From positions 164,500 through 228,499 of the IMG/VR virus record IMGVR_UViG_3300046810_000338: a stretch of 64,000 nt of DNA; one strand, given 5' to 3'. The DNA comes from a virus. A program made the translations under genes and the position numbers. Each line of letters starts with the position of its first letter. Positions within the stretch are counted from its first letter, which is position 1. This document shows positions 19,137 to 55,614 of this stretch, piece after piece. A model generated the notes under the pieces. It was given only the letters and a program-made list of their open reading frames with translations, was not told the DNA's origin and did not search any database.

Positions 19137-19157
19137 TCGTAAGTAAAGGAGATCACC

Positions 19158-26793: not shown

Positions 26794-26831
26794 GACCTTG
26801 CAGGGGCTCCTAAGGGAGTCCCTGCTTTATG
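26789..26831 (+). terminator. Terminator CATAA-hairpin-TTATG
   Basis: The arms 26800-26810 and 26814-26825 lie just after the protease stop codon. TTATG follows at 26827-26831 and CATAA precedes at 26789-26793. It ends the polymerase-protease operon before the small-gene array. Confidence 0.8.
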
Positions 26832-44359: not shown

Positions 44360-46522
44360 ATGATTTTGCACTCGGAGGACATCCTGGATTATCCGGGGGC
44401 CATCTATGATTTCCATACGTCCAACAAAAGCTTTGTTCGGTACGTAGCCCTGCTTAAGGCAATGGGCGTAAAGAATGCCTATTTTGCTTTGGCACTCATG
44501 CAGCCAGAATTGCAAGGGGTCAATCCCCACGATCCCAACTTGGACGAGCTTACCAAGATCAAGATCTGGCAAGAGTGCATGGAAAACCCCTGGTACTTCC
44601 TGAGGGAGGTTATCCGTATTAAAGCGGGTGACATGATCCCGTACGGCGCTAACCGGGGTAACATGGCTTTGATGTGGCTGTTCCTTAACCACATTGACAT
44701 GTTCCTGATCCAGCCTCGTCAGACAGGTAAGTCTGTCGCGGCCGACTGTCTGATGCTGTGGCTGATCTACTTCGGTTGCTACAACATCGAGATCCAGCTT
44801 ATTACAAAAGACGCCAACCTTCGAACGACGAACGTCAATCGGATGAAGGCCATGCGTGACGGTATCCCACAATACTTAATTGCGTTTGACAAGAACGACC
44901 CAGACAACACCGAGGTCATTGGTTACGCTGCTCGCAAGATGCTCTACACGGCCAAAGTGCCACGGGCCTCTGAGATCGATGCTGAGAAAGTGGGTCGGGG
45001 TGCTACAGGCGAGATCCTGCAATTTGACGAAGCCCCGCACATTAACCACATCGGCATTACCTTGCCATCGGCTCTGGGTTCCTCCACCGCTGCCCGTGAG
45101 AACGCCAAACGTAACAACACGCCATACGGCATTCTGTACACCACTACCGCTGGCCGTATTGACAGCCGTGATGGTCGGTACGTGTACGACATGTTGCAAG
45201 GGGCAGCTATCTGGAACGAAGGGTTCCTGGATGCGGGCAGTCAAGAACGTCTGGAGCAAATGGTTCTCGACCATGGCACCTCCGATGCTCCTCTGATGAA
45301 CTGCACGTTCTCTCACAGGCAATTGGGTTACACCGATGCCTGGCTATGGGAAACCATGGCGCGCAACAAAGCGTCGGGGGAACTGGCAGAGCGGGACTAC
45401 CTTAACCGCTGGACAAACGGTACAGGCAGTAACCCAATCTCGGCACAGCTGCTGGAACGGATTGCTAAGTCTGAGCGAGATCCTAACTGGATTGAGCATA
45501 CCAAAGAAGGCTACATGGTTCGCTGGTATATCCCTGAGGCCGAGATGTCTGCTATGTTGGCAGAGCGCAAGTTCATCATGGGGCTCGATACCAGTGATGC
45601 GATCGGTCGAGACGGTATTGACATGGTGATCATTGATACCCGAACACTGTCGGTGGTAGCATCGGGTACCTTTAACCGTACCAGTATCTACCGCTGGATT
45701 AGTTTCCTCGGTGCCTTCATGATTCGTTACCCGAACATCACGCTGATCCCTGAACGTAAGTCCAGTGCTCAGTCGATTGTGGATGGCCTGGTTCAGATTC
45801 TGGACTCGGCAGGTATCGATCCATTCCGTCGTATCTTCAACCACCTTGCGGACAACAAAGAGAAGTACGGAGAAGAGCTGACCTCTACAGCCAACTCCAT
45901 GCTGCGTCGTCGTATGTACGAAACCCACAAGCAATACTTCGGGTTCAATACCACAGGCGATTCTCGTACGCAGCTGTATGTGGACGTGCTTAACAACACG
46001 TTGGAAGATGCAGCCGGTAAGATCCTCGATAAGAAACTCTCGGGTGAACTGCGTGGGTTGGTTGTCAAGAACGGGCGTGTGGATCACCAGACCGGCGGAC
46101 ACGATGACTCGATCATTGCCTACCTCATGGCCAACTGGATGTTGATCCATGGTCGTAACCTGCAACACTACGGCATTACGTCCAAAGACATTCGTACCGA
46201 GGTTGTACGCGGTAAGGATGTGGTGACTGTAGCGGACATGATCAAACAAGATCGTGCTCGTAAGTTGCGCGCTAATCTGGACTCTCTGTTCGAGCGTCTG
46301 AATAACGTGACTACTGATGCAGAAGCCATCCGTCTGGAATACGAGATCCGTCACCTGATGACCCTGTCGTTTGACATTGGGGAATCTGCTGAGAGTATTC
46401 AAGAGCTGATCGATGCGGCTGCGGCTAAACGGCGTGACCGTCTGAGAACCAATCGCTACAACCACAACTCCGGTGTCAACTGGAATACTCAAGGGTGGCA
46501 GCCGCCTCCCATGACCTGCTAA
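44360..46522 (+). CDS. Terminase large subunit
   Basis: This 720-residue protein has a Walker A at residues 118-125 (QPRQTGKS) after the typical hydrophobic strand, and a Walker B with catalytic carboxylate ILQFDEAP (D223, E224). The RNase H-like nuclease has its first aspartate in MGLDTSDAIG (D410) and the C-terminal pair in GGHDDSIIAYLMAN (D582, D583). The protein packages DNA into proheads and cuts it. The frame is continuous, so there is no intein, which some relatives carry. CTAAGGAGCGG precedes the ATG. Position after the gp26-like gene matches phiKZ gp25. Confidence 0.9.
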   Translation: MILHSEDILDYPGAIYDFHTSNKSFVRYVALLKAMGVKNAYFALALMQPELQGVNPHDPNLDELTKIKIWQECMENPWYFLREVIRIKAGDMIPYGANRGNMALMWLFLNHIDMFLIQPRQTGKSVAADCLMLWLIYFGCYNIEIQLITKDANLRTTNVNRMKAMRDGIPQYLIAFDKNDPDNTEVIGYAARKMLYTAKVPRASEIDAEKVGRGATGEILQFDEAPHINHIGITLPSALGSSTAARENAKRNNTPYGILYTTTAGRIDSRDGRYVYDMLQGAAIWNEGFLDAGSQERLEQMVLDHGTSDAPLMNCTFSHRQLGYTDAWLWETMARNKASGELAERDYLNRWTNGTGSNPISAQLLERIAKSERDPNWIEHTKEGYMVRWYIPEAEMSAMLAERKFIMGLDTSDAIGRDGIDMVIIDTRTLSVVASGTFNRTSIYRWISFLGAFMIRYPNITLIPERKSSAQSIVDGLVQILDSAGIDPFRRIFNHLADNKEKYGEELTSTANSMLRRRMYETHKQYFGFNTTGDSRTQLYVDVLNNTLEDAAGKILDKKLSGELRGLVVKNGRVDHQTGGHDDSIIAYLMANWMLIHGRNLQHYGITSKDIRTEVVRGKDVVTVADMIKQDRARKLRANLDSLFERLNNVTTDAEAIRLEYEIRHLMTLSFDIGESAESIQELIDAAAAKRRDRLRTNRYNHNSGVNWNTQGWQPPPMTC

Positions 46523-46567: not shown

Positions 46568-47908
46568 TCACTTGGAAATGTCTTTGCGCAAGCGAGCAAC
46601 GATCTCACGCATTTTGGTACGGGTTTCTGGAGTGACTTCTGGACTCATGGCGAAGACTTCAAAGATCTCCATCTGTTCCTTCAGTGCATCAACTGTCTCC
46701 TTACCCAACACATTGACCAGTTTGTTGAAAGCGGCAACTTCGATGTCTACCATTTCCAGCAACCAGTCGGCAACCTTGACCTTTTCCTTGGTCATGTCGA
46801 TGTATCGAGTGAGAATGTTGTTGGTGTGTTCGGGAACGCCTTCAGTCGCCTTCAGTCGCTTCTCATCGGCCTCAATCAACTTGGCCAACTTAGTCACGTC
46901 ATCAAAGTCTTTGACCAACTTGGAGTTATCAGGAACCCGAACCTTCAAACGCTCGCCAGTGCGCTCACCGACCCGAATGGCCTGGATGAAGTCTTCCAGG
47001 GCCGACCCAACCATACTCGCTGGTGATTTAGCCCAGTCACGGATGTGCATCATCGTGTGCAATGGGTTTGTCTTGTCGGTAAGGGGGATCTCCTGCTGTA
47101 GTTTGAAGTAGCGAACGAACTCTGCCATTTCTGCAATGGCGGGGTTGTTGGATCTACCCATAAACTCGGCCGAGGCCGCCCAGGCTTTCTTGATGGAGAT
47201 GTCGGACTCGTCGCCTTCTTTCATTTTCAAAGCAGCTTCGACAGCCGGCTTAAGGATCTCTTTATAATCCTTGTCCAGATCAATGGTCAGCTTGCTGTAT
47301 ACCTTGGACGCCAGGGAATATACGCCCACTGTACTGTCGACAGAAACATGTGCCAAACTTTCCCAGGCCAGGTTGTTAAGACCGTAACCCTTTAGCCGCT
47401 CAACCACTTCATCCGTGGTCTTCTTCACCTTCTCAACCGATGCGTGGTAGGCTGCGGTGTTCATGGCCAACGCTTCCTTGGCAGCTTTGCCGGCTTCCTC
47501 CTTGCCACCAGTGACCTTGTTCAGGTTATCAACGGCCTTGGCATTTGGAGTTGCCTGTCCTTTACCAGAAGCACGCATCATCAACCAAATGAGCGTACCC
47601 AAGCCTGCAATGACGCCAGCGGCGATGATGACCTTAAGCGTAGTCGACAACGCTTCCTGCGTCATCTCGTAATTGGTGTTGGTAGGCTGGGTCGTAAAGG
47701 ACTCAAGTGCCATGTCGGCAGGCAGGTAGTCTTTGAACTGATTCGCCAGATCAATCGAAACACCGCCAGTGGATTGAAGAAGCTCAAGGCTCATTTCGAC
47801 CTGTGCTCGGTCATCGGCGATCTGAGAAACGAGATCATCGATCTGTTCGATTTCCATGCCCTCCATTGATTCAAGAGTGAGGGTAGAATACTTTTCTGTC
47901 AGTTTCAT
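46568..47908 (-). CDS. Putative inner-head protein with membrane-like segment, 446 residues
   Basis: An acidic N-terminal region of about 70 residues (MKLTEKYSTLTLESMEGMEI) ends at the motif ALESF (67-71), a possible (S/A)-X-E prohead protease site. A hydrophobic helix follows at about 90-112 (TLKVIIAAGVIAGLGTLIWL), then charged helical repeats to the C-terminus (TKMREIVARLRKDISK). This build fits proteins of the phiKZ inner body that lose a propeptide. AAGGAC precedes the ATG, and the gene is co-oriented with the 437-residue gene 9 bases upstream of it. Confidence 0.65.
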   Translation of the reverse strand: MKLTEKYSTLTLESMEGMEIEQIDDLVSQIADDRAQVEMSLELLQSTGGVSIDLANQFKDYLPADMALESFTTQPTNTNYEMTQEALSTTLKVIIAAGVIAGLGTLIWLMMRASGKGQATPNAKAVDNLNKVTGGKEEAGKAAKEALAMNTAAYHASVEKVKKTTDEVVERLKGYGLNNLAWESLAHVSVDSTVGVYSLASKVYSKLTIDLDKDYKEILKPAVEAALKMKEGDESDISIKKAWAASAEFMGRSNNPAIAEMAEFVRYFKLQQEIPLTDKTNPLHTMMHIRDWAKSPASMVGSALEDFIQAIRVGERTGERLKVRVPDNSKLVKDFDDVTKLAKLIEADEKRLKATEGVPEHTNNILTRYIDMTKEKVKVADWLLEMVDIEVAAFNKLVNVLGKETVDALKEQMEIFEVFAMSPEVTPETRTKMREIVARLRKDISK

Positions 47909-47917
47909 GACAAGTCC

Positions 47918-49231
47918 TTACTTGTAGTAGTTCATGGTCAAGGCACGAACCACGATGTAGAGTTCAAGCGCAGTGCGCAGCGAGGAGATCTGGGTGTCGC
48001 TCTTAGACAGACGAGACTTGGTCACGATCTGCAAGGCCATGTCACGGGCTTTGATCAACCCCGTGTCACGCATCCGAGAGGCCATGTACAGATCCTTAAG
48101 ACGCGAGATCAATACAGCCAGATCATCTACCCGCTTCAATGCCACACGGTTGACCTGGATGTAGTCTACAGCGTGCAGAACCAGTTCCTCTGCCAACTCA
48201 CCCGTAGGTACCTTCATGCGCCCCCTGTGGGCCTCTGAGGTCCACTTGAGCAGTTCTAGGAAAAGGTTGGGCGATACACTGCCCACCATCTCTGTCACGA
48301 TCGTTACACACTCATCACGGATGAATGTGTTGGGGTCTTGCATGACGCCCAGGATGTAAGGCACATAGCGCTTGTTGGCATTCATGTGACTCTTTACCAT
48401 CAACTCACCGTCAATGGTCAGTGTCGAGGTGGTCGTACGAATACGACCGCCGTTACGACGCACATCCAGGTGCACCTGGAAGATCTTCTTCATGACTTCC
48501 CGCAAACGATCCTGAGGCTCGGTTACGGCATAAGTAACCGACACGTCTGGACTGTAGTGCTCAACGCAGGCGTGGTGGATAGCATTTGGCAGAAAGAAAC
48601 GTTCGGCCCGTTGAGTAAACCACACGTCCCATGAACCCGCTTGCTTGATGTCAAACTTCAGCGAGAGCGAGGCATAGGTTGCTTTGGCTTCTTCTACAGA
48701 AGCAGGCTTGTCGTACCAGTGAGACAACAGACTGGTAAACAGCTTAACCTGCAACATGTAGAACACATCAATCTTGGCCTGGATCTTTTTAGCCTGAGAC
48801 AGCTTAGGACTGTTGTGCAGGCGATAGATCAGGTAAAGAGCGGCGGTGTTATACGGGTCACTCAGACGCGCAAAGTCAGATTCGATCAAAGGCGTCTTGA
48901 CGATCTCGGCACGAGCCTCGTTCTCGTCAATACCAATCACGTCTTCAAAGAAGATACTGCGATCGGTTGAGGTATGGCGAACAATCTCCACACCTAACAG
49001 ATTGCCACCAAAGAACGCAATGTGATCTTCGTTCTTGTTGATGAACCCACGTTTGTATTTGGCGATATGCTCAACCAAATAGTTATCTACCACGAGGTCT
49101 TCGCACAGTACGTCAAAGACCTGCTTAATGGTGCCGCCGTCACTAGACAGGGCTTCCAGGGCCATGGAGGCTATGAACCGCCCGGCATCGGCTTCGAGGC
49201 TATCAAAGTCGAAGTTGTAATAGTGATCCAT
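47918..49231 (-). CDS. Putative inner-head or virion protein, 437 residues
   Basis: The N-terminus MDHYYNFDFDSLEADAGRFI contains SLE at 11-13 and ALE at 24-26, two possible cleavage sites for the phiKZ-type prohead protease. The remainder is helical and charged, without membrane segments or catalytic motifs. It is the first gene of a two-gene minus-strand unit; AAGGGAC lies upstream of the ATG. The divergent control region with the 18-base element follows. The structural call is an inference from motifs and neighbours. Confidence 0.6.
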   Translation of the reverse strand: MDHYYNFDFDSLEADAGRFIASMALEALSSDGGTIKQVFDVLCEDLVVDNYLVEHIAKYKRGFINKNEDHIAFFGGNLLGVEIVRHTSTDRSIFFEDVIGIDENEARAEIVKTPLIESDFARLSDPYNTAALYLIYRLHNSPKLSQAKKIQAKIDVFYMLQVKLFTSLLSHWYDKPASVEEAKATYASLSLKFDIKQAGSWDVWFTQRAERFFLPNAIHHACVEHYSPDVSVTYAVTEPQDRLREVMKKIFQVHLDVRRNGGRIRTTTSTLTIDGELMVKSHMNANKRYVPYILGVMQDPNTFIRDECVTIVTEMVGSVSPNLFLELLKWTSEAHRGRMKVPTGELAEELVLHAVDYIQVNRVALKRVDDLAVLISRLKDLYMASRMRDTGLIKARDMALQIVTKSRLSKSDTQISSLRTALELYIVVRALTMNYYK

Positions 49232-49301: not shown

Positions 49302-49384
49302 CAGACCCTATATAAAGAAATTTCAAACCTATATTCTTGCTGTGAATGAGTTGAATAAACAATCTCGTTCATCTATCTAACCAG

Positions 49385-49398
49385 GTTCTAAGGAGAAC
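49385..49398 (+). promoter_or_regulatory. Hairpin ribosome binding site 1
   Basis: GTTCT-AAGG-AGAAC: the Shine-Dalgarno core AAGGAG sits in the loop and 3-prime arm of a 5-bp hairpin, 4 bases before the ATG at 49403. It is the first of nine covarying copies in this cluster. Confidence 0.6.
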
Positions 49399-49402
49399 TA
49401 AC

Positions 49403-49699
49403 ATGTCCATTACTACCACTATCGCCACTACCCTGAACAACATCTTCGCCCTCACTCGGGTTAAAGAGGTTACTCTGAAAGTCAATCAACCAGAAGCTCT
49501 GACCTACATTGAGACGGTTGAGGCTGGCGGGGTAATTAAGCGTCACGGCATCACCGTTACTTTCAATAACTTCCTGAACCCCTCTATGGGTTACAAACAG
49601 GTTGTACTCTGGAAGTACATGCAGCGCATGGCTAAATCCAATAACTTGGGTGAGCTGCGCGTCATCAACTTCAACGGCGAGATCTACTCCGTCGAGTAA
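49403..49699 (+). CDS. Hypothetical protein, 98 residues
   Basis: First gene of the short-gene cluster, behind hairpin ribosome binding site 1. MSITTTIATTLNNIFALTRV leads into beta-type segments (KEVTLKVNQPEALTYIETVE) and a C-terminal strand GELRVINFNGEIYSVE. The fold looks small and beta-rich. No family is recognised. It is monocistronic, with a control region upstream and a 12-bp hairpin downstream. Confidence 0.7.
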   Translation: MSITTTIATTLNNIFALTRVKEVTLKVNQPEALTYIETVEAGGVIKRHGITVTFNNFLNPSMGYKQVVLWKYMQRMAKSNNLGELRVINFNGEIYSVE

Positions 49700-49708
49700 T
49701 AGTAACAT

Positions 49709-49738
49709 CCTTAGCCTAACAATGGTGTTAGGCTAAGG
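49709..49738 (+). terminator. Hairpin terminator, 12-bp stem
   Basis: CCTTAGCCTAAC and GTTAGGCTAAGG pair around AATGGT, followed by CTTACC rather than TATG. It isolates the 49403 gene from the next. Confidence 0.7.
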
Positions 49739-49750
49739 CTTACCTTCCAA

Positions 49751-49764
49751 GTCCTAAGGAGGAC
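49751..49764 (+). promoter_or_regulatory. Hairpin ribosome binding site 2
   Basis: GTCCT-AAGG-AGGAC: relative to site 1 the third pair from the loop changes from T-A to C-G with pairing kept. The ATG follows at 49770. Confidence 0.6.
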
Positions 49765-49769
49765 ATGTC

Positions 49770-50651
49770 ATGAAACAAGCGAACATTACTTTCATCGAAG
49801 ATGCTGAAGGCGCCCTGATCTTTCAATACGAAGGTCGCAAGTATCTCTACGCTGGTCGTAAAGAGGGGACCATGTATGGTATCTCCACCATTCGTGAAGA
49901 ATGGAAGGAACTGCTGGAAGATGCTGGCAATCGTTCTTACGAGAAGGTTGGTAAGCGGGCTGTGGAGATTGGTCTGGACTTTGTATGTTTTGACCTGGGC
50001 GTCATTAACATCGACGCGGTGGCCAAGGTCACGGATCTAATGGAGACCTACGATGACTTCGAAGGTCTGGGTGTAATGTCAATCAGCAAAACCGATTGCC
50101 GTTCTCCAGACGGCATCACGATCGGTTTGATCGACGGCATGATCGCCATGGCTCGGGTTCTGCGTAAAGCCAACCTGGGCTCGGCAGAGGTACAAGAGGC
50201 TCTGAAGGACTTCACTACCGATGAGGATGTGAAGTGGTTGATGGAGCAGTCTGTACAGAACTGGGACTTCGAAGAGGACGCTAGCTGGCAACTGGGTGAT
50301 CCACTTCACCCAGTGGTCGTTCCTGAAACGGCTCCTCAGCCAGCCCTCGAATCTTCCAAAGATGGCAAGTACATGGTGGAGTATTGCCAGAAGACTTGGC
50401 CAGTCGGTTGGGATCACCAGGACTCGACCATCGAGTTTGACAGTCGGGATGAAATGACCACCTGGCTGGTGAACAAGATCGAGTGGTGCAAGTACGAAGA
50501 TAACGGCTTCCGTTGCCGCGTCTATTTGTACAAGGACAACTTTCCTTACTCGATCGGCAAAGGTGAATGGACTGACAAGCAGTTCAAAGACGTTGGCATG
50601 GGTTGTAAACCAACGGTTGAAGTCCTCGCCGACATGGAATGGATGAAGTAA
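49770..50651 (+). CDS. Hypothetical protein, 293 residues
   Basis: Behind hairpin ribosome binding site 2. The acidic protein has an N-terminal beta domain (FIEDAEGALIFQYEGRKYLY), a helical middle (LIDGMIAMARVLRKANLGSA, VQEALKDFTTDEDVKWLMEQ), a proline-rich spacer near 190, and a C-terminal domain rich in Trp and Tyr (YCQKTWPVGWDHQDS, FRCRVYLYKDNFPYSIG). It is flanked by hairpins on both sides. No family is recognised. Confidence 0.7.
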   Translation: MKQANITFIEDAEGALIFQYEGRKYLYAGRKEGTMYGISTIREEWKELLEDAGNRSYEKVGKRAVEIGLDFVCFDLGVINIDAVAKVTDLMETYDDFEGLGVMSISKTDCRSPDGITIGLIDGMIAMARVLRKANLGSAEVQEALKDFTTDEDVKWLMEQSVQNWDFEEDASWQLGDPLHPVVVPETAPQPALESSKDGKYMVEYCQKTWPVGWDHQDSTIEFDSRDEMTTWLVNKIEWCKYEDNGFRCRVYLYKDNFPYSIGKGEWTDKQFKDVGMGCKPTVEVLADMEWMK

Positions 50652-50664
50652 AGCTGAATAGTAC

Positions 50665-50700
50665 CCCAGTCTCCCAATAGTGGGAGACTGGGTTTTATAC
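50665..50700 (+). terminator. Hairpin followed by TTTTATAC
   Basis: CCCAGTCTCCC (50665-50675) and GGGAGACTGGG (50682-50692) pair; TTTTATAC follows in the place where TTATG stands elsewhere. Confidence 0.75.
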
Positions 50701-50705
50701 CCTCG

Positions 50706-50719
50706 GTTCTAAGGAGAAC
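50706..50719 (+). promoter_or_regulatory. Hairpin ribosome binding site 3
   Basis: GTTCT-AAGG-AGAAC, same as site 1, 4 bases before the ATG at 50724 and only 5 bases after the TTTTATAC of the terminator, so the leader would be very short if transcription restarts there. Confidence 0.6.
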
Positions 50720-50723
50720 TAAA

Positions 50724-51212
50724 ATGGTTACTGATATTCGTGATCCGTTGGATAATGTTACCATGGTTGCCAAGCTGTTTGCAGGCTTCGTTGCCTCTGG
50801 TGATCTGGTGCTTGAACCGGAAGTTGATAATGAGGCTGCTCTGCGCAACTACCATCGTTGCCGCGAGTTCGCCAAGGGGCGTGGGTTGCCGGGTGCCAAT
50901 CTGGAAGAAGACATGGATCTGGTCAAGATCGCTCGTCTGCGCAGTGCTGCTCAGATCCTGTCAGCCTTTACCAAAGACGATGTCCATCGCATGAAGGACT
51001 ATATCTCGGTCGAAGGTGCCAAGAACAATTTGCAGGCACTGTGTCGCGCAGTCGAATTGGGTATGGTAGAATTCAAACCGTTGACCAGCAATGAGGTCTA
51101 CGTTGAGAACTGCCGTATCGCCAACGAATTCTTGAGCCTGCCAAACCCTTTCACTCCACCGCCTGCGCCTACCAAGCCTTTGCTTTCGGTTATCAAATCT
51201 ACCAAGTTCTAA
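50724..51212 (+). CDS. Hypothetical protein, 162 residues
   Basis: Mainly helical, soluble protein (MVTDIRDPLDNVTMVAKLFA, VKIARLRSAAQILSAFTKDD) with a proline-rich C-terminus (PNPFTPPPAPTKPLLSVIKS). Its TAA stop lies inside the hairpin ribosome binding site of the next gene, so termination and re-initiation may be linked. No family is recognised. Confidence 0.7.
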   Translation: MVTDIRDPLDNVTMVAKLFAGFVASGDLVLEPEVDNEAALRNYHRCREFAKGRGLPGANLEEDMDLVKIARLRSAAQILSAFTKDDVHRMKDYISVEGAKNNLQALCRAVELGMVEFKPLTSNEVYVENCRIANEFLSLPNPFTPPPAPTKPLLSVIKSTKF

Positions 51213-51219
51213 GGAGAAC
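51206..51219 (+). promoter_or_regulatory. Hairpin ribosome binding site 4
   Basis: GTTCT-AAGG-AGAAC contains the stop codon of the previous gene (51210-51212) and precedes the ATG at 51223 by 3 bases. Confidence 0.6.
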
Positions 51220-51222
51220 AAG

Positions 51223-51711
51223 ATGGACGTACATTTCAAAGTTGACAATCGGAATACTCTCGGGAAGTTTCCTCTGGCCGCCTACATTCAGGCACCCAAG
51301 GTCGATGTCGATCTTTTTCGCAGGGAGCTGCACTGGGTCAGTGAGAAGTTTGAGAGCGAAGCTCTGCGTGCAGAGAAGATGTTCTACATCGCTTACGAAC
51401 ACGGTGGCGATGCGCTGATAGTCGAACTGATCGATCTGGCTAAGCGCTGCACCCCAGATCTGGGGATTGCTAAGACCACCGACAACCAATTCGTGTTCAG
51501 GCATGTTCTACTGCATGGTATCGACGTCACTCAGGACGACCAGTACAAGTGCCTGTATGCAGTTCACATGCTGCAACAGATTCTTAGTTTTGCTGCACTG
51601 CCTGACGGTCCTGGTGAAGAAGGTCATCTGGACTTCGTTGCCAAAGCGTTTGACACGTTGGTTGATCGCCTGCGTGCAACTGTCAAGACCATGAACAAGC
51701 TTCAAGGTTAA
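51223..51711 (+). CDS. Hypothetical protein, 162 residues
   Basis: Second gene of a two-gene unit, behind hairpin ribosome binding site 4. A soluble helical protein (MDVHFKVDNRNTLGKFPLAA, ALIVELIDLAKRCTPDLGIA) ending in the helix FDTLVDRLRATVKTMNKLQG. The equal length of 162 residues shared with its neighbour is not matched by visible sequence similarity. No family is recognised. Confidence 0.7.
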   Translation: MDVHFKVDNRNTLGKFPLAAYIQAPKVDVDLFRRELHWVSEKFESEALRAEKMFYIAYEHGGDALIVELIDLAKRCTPDLGIAKTTDNQFVFRHVLLHGIDVTQDDQYKCLYAVHMLQQILSFAALPDGPGEEGHLDFVAKAFDTLVDRLRATVKTMNKLQG

Positions 51712-51721
51712 CCTGAAATAC

Positions 51722-51755
51722 CCCAGCCCATCATTTCGATGGGTTGGGTTTATAC
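51722..51755 (+). terminator. Hairpin followed by TTTATAC
   Basis: CCCAGCCCATC (51722-51732) and GATGGGTTGGG (51738-51748) pair, then TTTATAC. It closes the 50724-51711 unit. Confidence 0.75.
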
Positions 51756-51759
51756 TCGC

Positions 51760-51774
51760 GATTCTAGGAGAATC
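51760..51774 (+). promoter_or_regulatory. Hairpin ribosome binding site 5
   Basis: GATTCT-AGG-AGAATC forms a 6-bp stem with the outer pairs changed in a compensated way (G-C, A-T). The ATG follows at 51777. Confidence 0.6.
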
Positions 51775-51776
51775 AC

Positions 51777-52091
51777 ATGGAATACGTACAAGCTGCTCTG
51801 ATCATTGCTCTTTGCTTAGCTACTCTGCTACGTGTTGTTTACTGGGCTGTACATGGTGGCGCTTACGTTCGTTCGGTAGGCGTCATGTTCAAGGCTGCAA
51901 GTCGTGGTGAGGATTACTACGAAGTTGTGGTTGGCGGTACTCGGCTGCGCAAGGTGTTAGAAGTTGAGGCTACTCTGTCTCCTCTGCACAGCGAACACGC
52001 ACTGCGTCGCCGCATCTGGCGGATGGCAAAACGGTGTGAACCAAAAATCAGTCGGATCAGCTATGCTGGTCACGTCTACGCTTACAATTAA
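51777..52091 (+). CDS. Small membrane protein, 104 residues
   Basis: A hydrophobic helix at residues 4-27 (VQAALIIALCLATLLRVVYW) would anchor it in the inner membrane, with a basic cytoplasmic C-terminal part (LRRRIWRMAKRCEPKISRIS). No signal peptidase site is obvious. It is followed after 24 bases by another membrane protein gene, so the two may act together at the host envelope. Function is unknown. Confidence 0.7.
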   Translation: MEYVQAALIIALCLATLLRVVYWAVHGGAYVRSVGVMFKAASRGEDYYEVVVGGTRLRKVLEVEATLSPLHSEHALRRRIWRMAKRCEPKISRISYAGHVYAYN

Positions 52092-52095
52092 TCCT

Positions 52096-52111
52096 AGTTC
52101 AAAGGAGAACT
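52096..52111 (+). promoter_or_regulatory. Hairpin ribosome binding site 6
   Basis: AGTTC-AAAGGA-GAACT pairs 5 bp with the Shine-Dalgarno sequence in the loop, 4 bases before the ATG at 52116. Confidence 0.55.
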
Positions 52112-52115
52112 AAAC

Positions 52116-52523
52116 ATGGCTCTTAAAGATTACATCCTGCTGATCAAAAAGAACAAACCGGTCCTGCTGGCTGTCGGCATGACCGTGCTGTTGGTTCCGG
52201 CGCTCATCACCTACTGGCTCTACAGCTGGCTGGGTGAGAGCGCTGTCACCTGGCTGACTCTCTGGAGCGTCATCTTCATGGAGGGAGTGCGCTTCTTCGT
52301 CGGTCGCTCTGCCGATTTCAAGGCAGGGGTTGCAAAGTCGTTGTCCAAGGTTTTCGCTGCCCAGGGTTACATGCTCTCCTGTCGCATCTGCTCTATCGTC
52401 GTTACCATCGGCCTGCTTTATGCCGGCTGGTGGATGTGCGCTGTGCTCACGCTGGTTGTGTGGTACCAGTTTGAAAGCTTGGTCAAGGCGGCTAGCAAGC
52501 CTGCCGATGGCGTAACCTTCTAA
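52116..52523 (+). CDS. Membrane protein with several helices, 135 residues
   Basis: Hydrophobic segments lie at about 14-36 (NKPVLLAVGMTVLLVPALIT), 42-60 (AVTWLTLWSVIFMEGVRFF) and 88-118 (SIVVTIGLLYAGWWMCAVLT), giving three or four transmembrane helices. The protein probably sits in the host inner membrane, where early phage membrane proteins often block superinfection or alter envelope functions; that role is an inference. The ribosome binding site is hairpin 6. Confidence 0.7.
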   Translation: MALKDYILLIKKNKPVLLAVGMTVLLVPALITYWLYSWLGESAVTWLTLWSVIFMEGVRFFVGRSADFKAGVAKSLSKVFAAQGYMLSCRICSIVVTIGLLYAGWWMCAVLTLVVWYQFESLVKAASKPADGVTF

Positions 52524-52530
52524 CACCCTA

Positions 52531-52551
52531 GGGCTCTCCGGGAGAGAGCCC
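52531..52551 (+). terminator. Hairpin, 8-bp stem
   Basis: GGGCTCTC and GAGAGCCC pair around CGGGA, then GCTCTTAAG. It ends the membrane-protein unit; no TATG follows. Confidence 0.55.
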
Positions 52552-52596
52552 GCTCTTAAGTGCATTGATTTCCAGTGTACTTAAAAGTCGTATCCC

Positions 52597-52612
52597 ATTT
52601 CTAAGGAGAAAT
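52597..52612 (+). promoter_or_regulatory. Hairpin ribosome binding site 7
   Basis: ATTTCT-AAGG-AGAAAT forms a 6-bp stem, again with compensated outer pairs. The ATG follows at 52616. Confidence 0.6.
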
Positions 52613-52615
52613 ACC

Positions 52616-53170
52616 ATGACTCATCCATCCTACAACGCTGTACAGAACGCCACTCTGGAAGCTGGCTCCATTGCATTCGATCCCAAGAAAGATCAGCCCG
52701 CCGGCTACGGTATCTTTCTTAACGTCTTCTACCTCGCCGAACACCGCAAGCATGCCGATAACTTGCCGTGCATCGAAATCCTCGAAGGCGACATGGAGCA
52801 CAATGACTACTACGGTCCTCTGACTCGTCGCAACCTGCGTCTGAAAGTGGGCACTCTGGTGCGGGCAGTGTCGCCTGGCAAGAACAACCGTCGGATGTTG
52901 ATCCTTGCTGGTCACACCGGCAACCTGGTTCTGTTCGAACGTTACACCGGTGGCGACAAAGGCGTGCTCGTCATGAACGTTCCTCGCGAATACACCCATC
53001 TGTTCGGTGGTTCGGCGTCTACTGAACACGACGTGCAATTGATGACGGGTGGTCTGTGGGGTACCAACGTCGTGCAGATCATGACCGACGTCATGCGCAC
53101 CTTCATCACCACCGACTTCTCTGGCGACCAAATCGTCACTAACAACGATCGGGATCTTGACGATGAGTAA
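52616..53170 (+). CDS. Hypothetical protein, 184 residues
   Basis: The ATG at 52616 stands behind hairpin ribosome binding site 7; upstream in-frame codons fall in the leader. The protein (MTHPSYNAVQNATLEAGSIA) has a beta-rich middle (VGTLVRAVSPGKNNRRMLIL, GDKGVLVMNVPREYTHLFGG) and ends in an acidic tail. C-ending codons dominate, suggesting strong expression. It overlaps the next gene by 8 bases. No family is recognised. Confidence 0.7.
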   Translation: MTHPSYNAVQNATLEAGSIAFDPKKDQPAGYGIFLNVFYLAEHRKHADNLPCIEILEGDMEHNDYYGPLTRRNLRLKVGTLVRAVSPGKNNRRMLILAGHTGNLVLFERYTGGDKGVLVMNVPREYTHLFGGSASTEHDVQLMTGGLWGTNVVQIMTDVMRTFITTDFSGDQIVTNNDRDLDDE

Positions 53171-53387
53171 TTTAAACGTTGACTACGAACCGGATGAGAT
53201 CCGCGATAACCTTTCCCCTGCCGAACAAGCGGTCTACGACAAAAACGTTGCCGCCGATATTCGGATCATCATGTCCGACCAAGCCATTCGTGACCGCCTG
53301 GTCGGTCCGTGGGATGGTGAAGGCTGGGATGAGGGTATGGACGAAGTCACCCGCCTGCAACGCATCAACATGATGCCTGTCAAGTAA
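53163..53387 (+). CDS. Small acidic protein, 74 residues
   Basis: The ATG at 53163 overlaps the end of the previous gene (ATGAGTAA), so it is translated by coupling. The protein is acidic (MSNLNVDYEPDEIRDNLSPA, then WDGEGWDEGMDEVTRLQRIN), helical and soluble; such acidic small proteins often mimic DNA or bind host enzymes, an inference without further support. A 12-bp hairpin follows. Confidence 0.65.
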   Translation: MSNLNVDYEPDEIRDNLSPAEQAVYDKNVAADIRIIMSDQAIRDRLVGPWDGEGWDEGMDEVTRLQRINMMPVK

Positions 53388-53392
53388 TCTAC

Positions 53393-53420
53393 AGTCTGGG
53401 CCACAAAGGTGGCCCAGACT
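53393..53420 (+). terminator. Hairpin terminator, 12-bp stem
   Basis: AGTCTGGGCCAC pairs with GTGGCCCAGACT across a short AAAG loop, then ACATCC. It separates the 52616-53387 unit from the next gene. Confidence 0.7.
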
Positions 53421-53428
53421 ACATCCAT

Positions 53429-53444
53429 GGTTCTAAGGAGAATT
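53429..53444 (+). promoter_or_regulatory. Hairpin ribosome binding site 8
   Basis: GGTTCT-AAGG-AGAATT keeps pairing through two G-U pairs, which RNA tolerates and a DNA operator would not. The ATG follows at 53448. Confidence 0.6.
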
Positions 53445-53447
53445 AAA

Positions 53448-55076
53448 ATGTCTAATGAAAGCAAAGTTTTGGTAAACGGTACTCCAATGGAAGCCGTCTT
53501 CCCTGAAGGGACTGAAGTGGTCGCCGACGACAAAGTTCGTTACACCATCGTTCATGGTCGCTGGGTTCCAGAAGGTGCAGTACAAAAGGCACTGTCCTGC
53601 ATTCATCTGGACGCGTCTGCCAATCGCATGGAATTGATGAACGCCATGCTCGACGGCAAAACAAAAGTTACTGGCAAGCCCTACCCGTTCCCACCGTTTC
53701 CTCTTGATGGCACCGAGGAAACAAATCGAACAGAGTTGTCTCCAGAAGAAAAGGCCAGTCTGTTCATTGCTAACGAATGCGGTGCAGTCAGTGAGGCGAC
53801 CCACGCGATCCTCGTTGAACACATCGTTAACGAACGCAAGGCGCCAGTCACCGAATTGCCGGAACCGGCGTTGTCTACCATTCAAAAATACGCTAATTTC
53901 CGCGACATCGGTGCTCTGGAAATCGGTGGCGGTGGTTCCCAAAAACACTACCAAACGCCAAGTAAGACCCGAGTCGAGCTGGAACAGGAACTTTCCAGTT
54001 TCATGTTCCTTATGGCAACCGGTAAGGAGATGCCAGAGGACCCTTTGGACAAGGCGCTCATCATGGCCAACACGTTCCTGCCAACCAGCCCAAAGCTGAA
54101 TGCCATTATCAGCCGGGCCGAGGAGCTGCACCCTGGCTTAAAGGCTCGGTTGTTTATGTCGGTGGAAGGCAAGCCGGATTTTGCTATTGGCGATGTAGAC
54201 CCGGAACTGCTTCCAGCTCTGTCTCAGGCACTCAAGGAATACAGCGCTCCGCCTGCACCAGAATCGCTCTTTGCCCATGAGCCCATTCTGGCCAGCAATC
54301 GCAAGACACCGGCAGAGATGGCGCAGGATGGTTACTGCTTCGGTACGGAAACCAGCACCCTGGTTCCCTCCGATGATGAACCAGTTATCGTTGTGGCGGC
54401 AGGACATCTTGCCGAGGTGGAACAACAACGCGGTGTTCATCGTGAAGGACGTGGCTTCGTAACCCGCCGCGTGATCATGGCTGAATCCAGCACACCTTTC
54501 ACAGGGCGCAACGTGATAACCTCGCCACCACCAATTGTCGAGGATTTGTCGCTGTTAATAACCGCGTGGAAGGTCATGGGGTTAGATCCTGACAACCTGC
54601 ACCGTGAGAGCTGGCACCTGGACATCGGCAGTAACCGTGCTCACAAACTCTTTGTCCAAGAACTGGAAAAGTGTCTGGATTCGGCTGGTAAGCTTTTTAT
54701 CGGTCCGGATGAACTCGCCGAATGGTACGACATGTTGAAGCTGCCGATCCGCGGCATTCTTCAACAACGCAGGCCAACTATCTATTACCCAGAGGACCAA
54801 ACGCTTAAACACGCTTGGGACAAAATGGGTTTAGACTTTGCGCGTCTTCCAGAACGTGATCGCAATCTCAACATCGCCGACTATTCTGCATGGATGCTGT
54901 TCGTTGCTGAGATTCGTAAACTGTTTCTCGATGAGAACGGCGTCGATTGGTTAAAGCCAATCGACAATGAACTGCTCAGCAAAATCCTCGCCCATCCCAT
55001 CGAAGACATTCTGGACATTATGCCCAGAGAGAGTTTGGATGAAATGTTGGCAGAAAATAAATCCTACAATGCCTGA
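53448..55076 (+). CDS. Hypothetical protein with C-terminal duplication, 542 residues
   Basis: Behind hairpin ribosome binding site 8. The N-terminal domain (MSNESKVLVNGTPMEAVFPE, then VRYTIVHGRWVPEGAVQKAL) is followed by helical and linker regions. The last third holds two related units of about 75 residues: residues about 367-441 (AWKVMGLDPDNL, AHKLFVQELEK, LKLPIRGILQ) and 450-527 (AWDKMGLDFARL, AWMLFVAEIRK, LAHPIEDILD). It is the largest protein of the cluster. No family is recognised; the repeat may bind a repeated partner. Confidence 0.7.
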   Translation: MSNESKVLVNGTPMEAVFPEGTEVVADDKVRYTIVHGRWVPEGAVQKALSCIHLDASANRMELMNAMLDGKTKVTGKPYPFPPFPLDGTEETNRTELSPEEKASLFIANECGAVSEATHAILVEHIVNERKAPVTELPEPALSTIQKYANFRDIGALEIGGGGSQKHYQTPSKTRVELEQELSSFMFLMATGKEMPEDPLDKALIMANTFLPTSPKLNAIISRAEELHPGLKARLFMSVEGKPDFAIGDVDPELLPALSQALKEYSAPPAPESLFAHEPILASNRKTPAEMAQDGYCFGTETSTLVPSDDEPVIVVAAGHLAEVEQQRGVHREGRGFVTRRVIMAESSTPFTGRNVITSPPPIVEDLSLLITAWKVMGLDPDNLHRESWHLDIGSNRAHKLFVQELEKCLDSAGKLFIGPDELAEWYDMLKLPIRGILQQRRPTIYYPEDQTLKHAWDKMGLDFARLPERDRNLNIADYSAWMLFVAEIRKLFLDENGVDWLKPIDNELLSKILAHPIEDILDIMPRESLDEMLAENKSYNA

Positions 55077-55124
55077 TCGTCATTAGACGAAGGCATCTAT
55101 CTCCATTTTCTTAAGGCAGAAAAG

Positions 55125-55310
55125 ATGAAAAATGTAATCGCAGTAGTAACCGGGTTGATCCTTGGCGCAGCGCTCATGGCTGGCCATTACGAGAAGCCCG
55201 GTGTTGCACAGGATCGTTCAACGGTCGTTGTGGGTCATCGTGTGGCCCCCAATGGTCAACAAATGGTTAGCTTTGCAGACGGCCATGTTATCACCGTACT
55301 GCAATTCTAA
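55125..55310 (+). CDS. Small protein with N-terminal membrane helix, 61 residues
   Basis: TTAAGGCAGAAAAG precedes the ATG. Residues 3-20 (NVIAVVTGLILGAALMAG) form a hydrophobic helix, either an uncleaved anchor or a signal sequence, followed by a short soluble part (VGHRVAPNGQQMVSFADGHV). It is probably exposed to the periplasm. Its TAA stop lies inside hairpin ribosome binding site 9. Function is unknown. Confidence 0.65.
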   Translation: MKNVIAVVTGLILGAALMAGHYEKPGVAQDRSTVVVGHRVAPNGQQMVSFADGHVITVLQF

Positions 55311-55317
55311 GGAGAGT
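55304..55317 (+). promoter_or_regulatory. Hairpin ribosome binding site 9
   Basis: ATTCT-AAGG-AGAGT pairs five positions with one U-G and includes the stop codon of the 55125 gene. The ATG follows at 55321. Confidence 0.5.
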
Positions 55318-55320
55318 GTT

Positions 55321-55614
55321 ATGCAACAGCAGTTTAAAGTATTGGAAAGCAGTCTGCGGACTGTGCTGGATGAGGCACCTGCTTTGCTTCATCACGAAGA
55401 GCTGAGCCCTTGTTTGAAGATGGCGTTGCTGAACAGCCTTCGTAACGACTTGGCAGATTTGCTCAATCGTATTGCCAATCTGTCTGGGCAGTCGCCAGAG
55501 ACTCACACCAACATTTTCCGAGAGGCCAGTCGCTTCTGTTTGCAAGTGAGCGACCTGAATAAGCCATCGCAGGGTATGTGGAGAATGGAACATGGCGGTT
55601 ATGGTGGCTTCTAA
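55321..55614 (+). CDS. Small helical protein, 97 residues
   Basis: The start is the ATG behind hairpin ribosome binding site 9; the frame runs further upstream through the previous gene, but no start there is plausible. The protein (MQQQFKVLESSLRTVLDEAP) is helical with a glycine-rich aromatic end (GMWRMEHGGYGGF). It overlaps the next gene by 23 bases. No family is recognised. Confidence 0.65.
   Translation: MQQQFKVLESSLRTVLDEAPALLHHEELSPCLKMALLNSLRNDLADLLNRIANLSGQSPETHTNIFREASRFCLQVSDLNKPSQGMWRMEHGGYGGF

Follow-up and report, generated by a model that had tools for sequence, protein, structure and literature searches.

A covarying hairpin around the Shine-Dalgarno sequence of putative early genes in jumbo phages

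Why would a virus fold the ribosome binding sites of many unrelated genes into the same small hairpin? The question is raised by a gene cluster at 49.4-55.6 kb of a 64,000-nucleotide stretch of viral DNA (the window), which corresponds to bases 164500-228499 of the 228,499-base virus record IMGVR_UViG_3300046810_000338 (the full record is called G000 here). The first-pass annotation of this DNA listed nine start sites in the cluster at which the Shine-Dalgarno (SD) sequence lies in the loop of a short hairpin. It proposed that the arms vary while pairing is kept, that G-U pairs are allowed, and that selection acts on RNA structure rather than on a DNA operator. Each of the nine was confirmed at its stated position, and the gene at 55125, which the list omitted, has a hairpin as well, making ten (Table 1). 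G-U pairs do occur, in hairpins 8 and 10, and the strong SD sites at 19146, 25252 and 44347 lack the element, as had been claimed. Sequence comparison shows that the structure is selected, that its register is fixed and that the element occurs preferentially a short way downstream of early promoters.

Covariation, register and orthologous leaders

Within the window, at least five pairs form in 9 of the 10 leaders, compared with a mean of 0.9 and a maximum of 5 when the flanks are shuffled. When the real 5' flanks are re-dealt among the ten leaders, 5.0 are paired on average versus the nine observed (P = 0.0008), the re-dealt mean being high because TTCT and AGAA are common to most arms. The window alone proves the hairpin and proves covariation weakly; it is the relatives that prove covariation. 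The claim that the arms vary with pairing kept thus has modest support in the window and is demonstrated by the relatives. The ten cluster proteins are not paralogous to one another, so the hairpin leaders are not passengers of gene duplication.

For the covariation analysis, nine jumbo-phage records supplied 95 non-redundant CTNAGGAG start sites, picked irrespective of pairing. Among 258 column pairs, the three outer pairs of the stem rank first to third, with z values of 27, 18 and 12, and the next pair has a z value of 4.5. Each of these three pairs shows all four Watson-Crick types, and the paired columns contain more compensatory changes than column make-up predicts. The covariation that the first-pass annotation anticipated once homologues were added was therefore found. 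A single register is enriched, in which the stem begins directly after the GG of the SD sequence and the loop is NAGG (82 sites versus 3.2 after permutation); the same register is seen at 2 sites in control jumbo phages, where 1.8 are expected from permutation. The loop is AAGG at 46 sites, TAGG at 12, GAGG at 9 and CAGG at 4. A sixth pair is Watson-Crick in 29% of cases versus 26% expected, and since it is no commoner than expected the stem is exactly five base pairs long. Other enriched registers were rejected as terminators before an ATG or as the same hairpins read one GG later.

Orthologues of the early genes mostly keep the hairpin with different arms. For example, the arm GATCT at G001 102159 corresponds to GTTCT at G002 160802, GTCCT at G001 32606 to GTTCT at G002 90877, and GATCT at G005 74118 to CTGCT at G010 61066. 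The closing pairs may also differ, as in TGTTCT-TAAGG-AGAACA at G005 69555 and AACTT-AGAGG-AAGTT at G010 55153. A few genes, mainly a 520-amino-acid core gene of G006, have orthologues without the hairpin. Exceptions to conservation include G006 202282, whose orthologues in other phages lack it, and G006 149125.

These observations bear on whether the hairpin is instead a DNA-level palindrome, such as a transcription operator, or a copied repeat that overlaps start sites by chance. The sequence GTTCTAAGGAGAAC does repeat exactly within the window, and as DNA it is an imperfect inverted repeat. Nevertheless, the arms vary freely with pairing kept, G-U pairs are present in the window, the register is tied to the SD sequence and to the strand, the proteins are not paralogues, and both internal and promoter-proximal genes carry the element. 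A DNA-level origin is hardly credible, and covariation together with conservation among orthologues supports the proposal that selection acts on RNA structure.

The register also distinguishes the element from a repressor site for host CsrA/RsmA, in which GGA is held in a hairpin loop over the SD sequence. A short stem presents GGA at the ribosome binding site in both cases, and AAGGA in a short hairpin resembles a CsrA site. However, the loop register and the conserved positions are not the same. The A of GGA lies in the stem here, whereas a CsrA site holds ANGGA in the loop; the A two bases before GG is free, and the N position is nearly always A. No CsrA is encoded in the 13 phage records searched. 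Regulation by host CsrA is very unlikely.

Link to early genes and occurrence in relatives

Are the genes that carry the hairpin early genes? The cluster is headed by an early-promoter-type repeat of 41 bases, which matches published early promoters of OBP, EL and phiKZ (PMC7058600) and has a second copy, 95% identical, at G000:145449-145489. Across seven genomes an early-promoter core lies 25-95 nucleotides upstream of 16 of 61 hairpin sites and of 8 of 283 other AGGAG sites (odds ratio 12, Fisher P 4e-8). The distance from core to hairpin is nearly constant, at 70, 70 and 70 in G000-G002 and 62-65 in G006. Internal genes carry the element as well as promoter-proximal ones. Judged by the promoter motif, from which the timing is inferred, the hairpin genes appear to be early genes. 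The first hairpin genes of G005 and G010 have a different shared upstream sequence of the TTTCAACGATACATGATAGCGGTGAA type, which is probably the early promoter of that clade and is unlike the phiKZ-type core. Upstream of three Alexandra sites, host-type TATACT boxes can be seen by eye.

The window belongs to a jumbo phage. It encodes the large terminase (TerL) at 44360-46522, with about 40-46% identity to phiKZ-related phages, and the full record encodes a chimallin homologue at G000:61502-63226 (E 2.9e-26). The phiKZ-type TerL and the chimallin homologue indicate a phage of the nucleus-forming, Chimalliviridae-like type.

The survey of the relatives covered all AGGAG sites that have an ATG and an open frame, whether paired or not, and those with at least five contiguous Watson-Crick pairs were compared with a null in which the 3' arms were permuted among sites. 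Paired sites (permuted means in brackets) number 9/81 (0.7) in G000, 10/70 (0.95) in G001, 10/66 (1.2) in G002, 11/61 (1.1) in G005, 14/39 (1.7) in G006, 8/37 (0.7) in G008, 9/68 (0.65) in G010, 9/57 (0.7) in G011, 7/14 (1.5) in G012 and 6/73 (0.6) in Erwinia phage Alexandra. In genomes sampled in part, there are none in phiKZ (0/29), 201phi2-1 (0/21), phiHQ (0/22), Psa21 (0/11), LucasX (0/13), Ea35-70 (0/24), Goslar (0/22) and SNUABM37 (0/18). phiKZ shares the type of early promoter that heads the cluster, but the 210 kb of it that were examined contain none of these hairpins.

Searched for in full genomes, the pattern matched several times in most carriers, with arms nearly all self-complementary, and it had two self-complementary matches in Erwinia phage pEa_SNUABM_7. 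Other public phage records gave no self-complementary match in this search; in three of them the pattern hit once, with mismatched arms. When viral contigs were scanned for exact patterns, matched arms were found in at least 119 and at least 120 stretches versus 98 and 99 for swapped arms. Among the loci listed, hairpins occur at 20 of 249 and 6 of 233 other start sites for matched arms, compared with 0 of 221 and 1 of 276 for swapped arms. In bacterial genomes, a scan for one arm pair found isolated hits dispersed over unrelated taxa, a pattern expected by chance.

The element is carried by phages that encode chimallin, which fall into three TerL clades, and by Alexandra, a cultured Erwinia phage. 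A chimallin search of Alexandra and a TerL search of its relative pEa_SNUABM_7 gave no match. The backbone of the TerL tree is unresolved, so that one origin with losses and several gains both fit. pEa_SNUABM_7 is a cultured Erwinia jumbo phage and a practical system for tests. At 214000-219000 of its genome, several SD hairpins stand in one cluster of small genes.

Display of the Shine-Dalgarno sequence and possible recognition

Most of the ten hairpins in the window are the minimum-energy fold of their own 28-nucleotide leader. Isolated hairpins are weak, with a mean of -3.2 kcal/mol and a range of -0.1 to -7.0. The hairpin of the MS2 coat gene, a ribosome binding site in a local hairpin, is fully translated in its wild-type form at -7.9 (PMC9894550). 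Since every hairpin here is weaker than that, the hairpin alone should not repress translation. The leaders were also folded in context, from -45 to +48, with the stem intact or broken in silico by three arm-base changes. The predicted mean probability that GG is unpaired is 0.74 in wild-type leaders and 0.18 when the stem is broken, and the corresponding value is 0.28 for other AGGAG genes that encode 120 or more amino acids, a group that may contain false starts. In the stem-broken folds, GG pairs with an upstream run of C (0.35) or with downstream sequence (0.34). These predictions support both display and protection of the SD sequence. The data as a whole favour a permissive display structure over a strongly repressing switch and are still compatible with a bound factor.

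Such folding also bears on a thermometer or stability switch that hides the SD sequence until melted. The hairpin does sit over the ribosome binding site, but GG is in the loop and unpaired, whereas the SD sequence of FourU and ROSE elements is paired in a stem. The energies are widely spread, and Rfam gave no match anywhere in the window. A thermometer is very doubtful, slightly more so than a CsrA site.

The run of C is part of the element. In the 12 nucleotides before the stem, 6.8% of bases are G versus 19.8% in other AGGAG leaders, and CC occurs 3-6 nucleotides before the stem in 72% of hairpin leaders versus 22% of others. The same is seen in Alexandra (50% versus 13%). The stretch, C-rich and G-poor, often reads ACCC. 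Geometry would seem to disfavour an H-type pseudoknot between the run of C and the loop GG, and this idea was dropped.

What, then, might the element do? The reading preferred here, at about even confidence, is that it is a translation-initiation RNA element acting as a self-folding display cassette for the ribosome binding sites of early genes, possibly one that is also read by a factor. The layout would be a G-poor, C-rich single strand, 2-3 nucleotides, a stem of five base pairs with an NAGG tetraloop that holds GG, and the start codon. Display is attractive because this phage family transcribes its early genes in a vesicle and translates the messages once they have been exported (PMC12908238). 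The virion RNA polymerase would make them inside the vesicle, and because they would meet ribosomes only after release, they would fold before translation. The small stem would form fast and hold GG in the loop, away from upstream runs of C and from downstream sequence. The 30S subunit would then open the weak stem after the loop has paired with the anti-Shine-Dalgarno sequence. The run of C may contact the initiating ribosome or a factor, or may form an alternative closed state.

Several points weigh against display. The AG of the SD sequence is always inside the stem, which is not the choice expected for pure display, and the exact loop and the run of C suggest specific recognition. Display leaves the run of C, the exact tetraloop and Alexandra unexplained. 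The argument from uncoupling of transcription and translation does not extend to Alexandra, because that phage has no chimallin and seemingly host-type promoters. Many phages of the same family do without the element, and the context folds are predictions whose comparison group is open to false starts.

Could a factor account for these features? The hairpin may be a post-transcriptional operator of an early regulon: bound by a protein or RNA from phage or host, it would lower or raise the output of the early genes collectively, in the way that T4 RegA/RegB or the MS2 coat protein act on their targets. This reading is tentative but a strong rival to display. The exact five-base-pair stem, the NAGG loop and the free arms agree with it, as do the run of C at a fixed place (in Alexandra too) and the class-wide association with early promoters. 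However, no candidate factor was found, CsrA being absent from all 13 records searched, and no protein family is clearly common to Alexandra and the carriers yet absent from the non-carriers. Moreover, the invariant letters besides the run of C are those that the SD sequence and its pairing need. In a related version, also tentative, the hairpin and the run of C together would be a recognition site for a factor of the phage or for a ribosome that the phage has modified. Early messages as a class would thereby be favoured, or silenced later on, whatever genes they carry, and unrelated lineages would have gained the site separately.

The hairpin might otherwise shield the SD sequence from endonucleases or RNAs that attack it when free, such as T4 RegB-like enzymes, host toxins or antisense RNA. 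In T4, GGAG is protected from RegB by RNA structure (PMC3014915), and in these hairpins GGAG is half paired. But GG remains exposed, and RegB alone cuts unpaired GGA with the last G constrained, so that a half-open loop offers no clear protection (PMC3014915). A RegB search gave no match, although the RegB model was silent in its controls too. A shield is improbable.

The element has partial parallels. The MS2 coat hairpin shares a stability compatible with full translation (PMC9894550), but it is one site in an RNA phage with the start codon inside the hairpin, whereas here many unrelated genes are each preceded by the SD loop, and the arms are free. T4 RegA and RegB likewise operate where translation begins, on early genes as a class (PMC3014915); RegB sites are set by GGAG and downstream sequence and are structure-protected, with no covarying hairpin. 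The translational operator of T4 gene 43 is also a short hairpin with a conserved loop adjoining the ribosome binding site. It serves a single gene whose own product binds it, and it lies upstream of the site, whereas the loop here is the SD sequence itself.

The first-pass annotation knew of no description of the element, and none was found in open-access full texts, subscription papers and preprints being mostly outside the search. The comparisons point to an undescribed, widely used device controlling the translation of early viral messages. Structured ribosome binding sites have so far been known gene by gene. Here one short shape with free letters recurs ahead of unrelated early genes by the dozen, across several lineages of jumbo phages that include cultured Erwinia phages. 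If display is correct, the element would be a portable, sequence-independent guarantee of accessible start sites on messages that fold before ribosomes arrive. If it is read by a factor, nucleus-forming phages would possess a new level of control over their early genes. Either reading would mark early genes in the sequence and offer a compact element for reporter assays.

The cluster and its surroundings

The element is not confined to the cluster, since the genome also carries it at G000 148340 and 30374. The next genes after the cluster, at 55592 and 55870, lack the hairpin.

Table 1. Positions of the hairpins and promoter-type sequences (window coordinates unless a record is named)
Feature	Position	Strand	Sequence	Gene	Remarks
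phiKZ/OBP/EL-type early promoter	49306-49346	+	core TTTCAAACCTATATT at 49321-49335		AT-rich, TATATT type; hairpin about 65 nucleotides further downstream, as in relatives
SD hairpin 1	49385-49398	+	GTTCT-AAGG-AGAAC	49403-49699	
SD hairpin 2	49751-49764	+	GTCCT-AAGG-AGGAC	49770-50651	hairpin retained in G001 and G002 orthologues
SD hairpin 3	50706-50719	+	GTTCT-AAGG-AGAAC	50724-51212	
SD hairpin 4	51206-51219	+	GTTCT-AAGG-AGAAC	51223-51711	G001 homologue GATCT-AAGG-AGATC
SD hairpin 5	51760-51774	+	GATTCT-AGG-AGAATC	51777-52091	3-nucleotide loop; G001/G002 homologues with GTCCT and TGTTCT arms
SD hairpin 6	52096-52111	+	AGTTC-AAAGGA-GAACT	52116-52523	same stem and register, A-A in place of closing U-A
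SD hairpin 7	52597-52612	+	ATTTCT-AAGG-AGAAAT	52616-53170	
SD hairpin 8	53429-53444	+	GGTTCT-AAGG-AGAATT	53448-55076	two G-U pairs
SD hairpin 9	55106-55123	+	TTTTCT-TAAGGC-AGAAAA	55125-55310	absent from the first-pass list
SD hairpin 10	55304-55317	+	ATTCT-AAGG-AGAGT	55321-55614	one G-U pair
TTTCAACGATACATGATAGCGGTGAA-type upstream sequence	G005 247530, 249002, 69346, 73312, 178888; G010 163833, 234765				

Little can be said of the cluster proteins. PHROGs gave no match for any of the nine tested, and Pfam gave a single sub-threshold match to DUF883 and nothing else. No close relatives of the protein of the gene at 52616 were found in phages or viral contigs, and a search of a phage collection with the DNA of the cluster region found no relative.

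Strong GC-rich intergenic hairpins lie between most of the cluster genes (49711-49739, 50663-50697, 51721-51751, 52527-52581 and 53392-53421), with folds of -25 to -34 kcal/mol and TTTTATA after some. Many of the cluster genes therefore look like single units, each with such a hairpin, a short SD-hairpin leader and an open reading frame. In hairpins 4 and 10, the TAA within CTAAGG also serves as stop codon for the gene before it (51210-51212 and 55308-55310), so that a ribosome terminating there would melt the hairpin ahead of the following gene.

Two further hairpins were seen elsewhere in the window. On the minus strand at 47910-47925, ACAAGT-AAGG-ACTTGT precedes the start of the divergent gene 46568-47908 and is a possible variant without GGAG. 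At 26800-26830, a hairpin of 11 base pairs, GCAGGGGCTCC-TAAG-GGAGTCCCTGC, is followed by TTT and then by the ATG of the gene at 26829; it may be a terminator that abuts, or hides, the start site of this gene.

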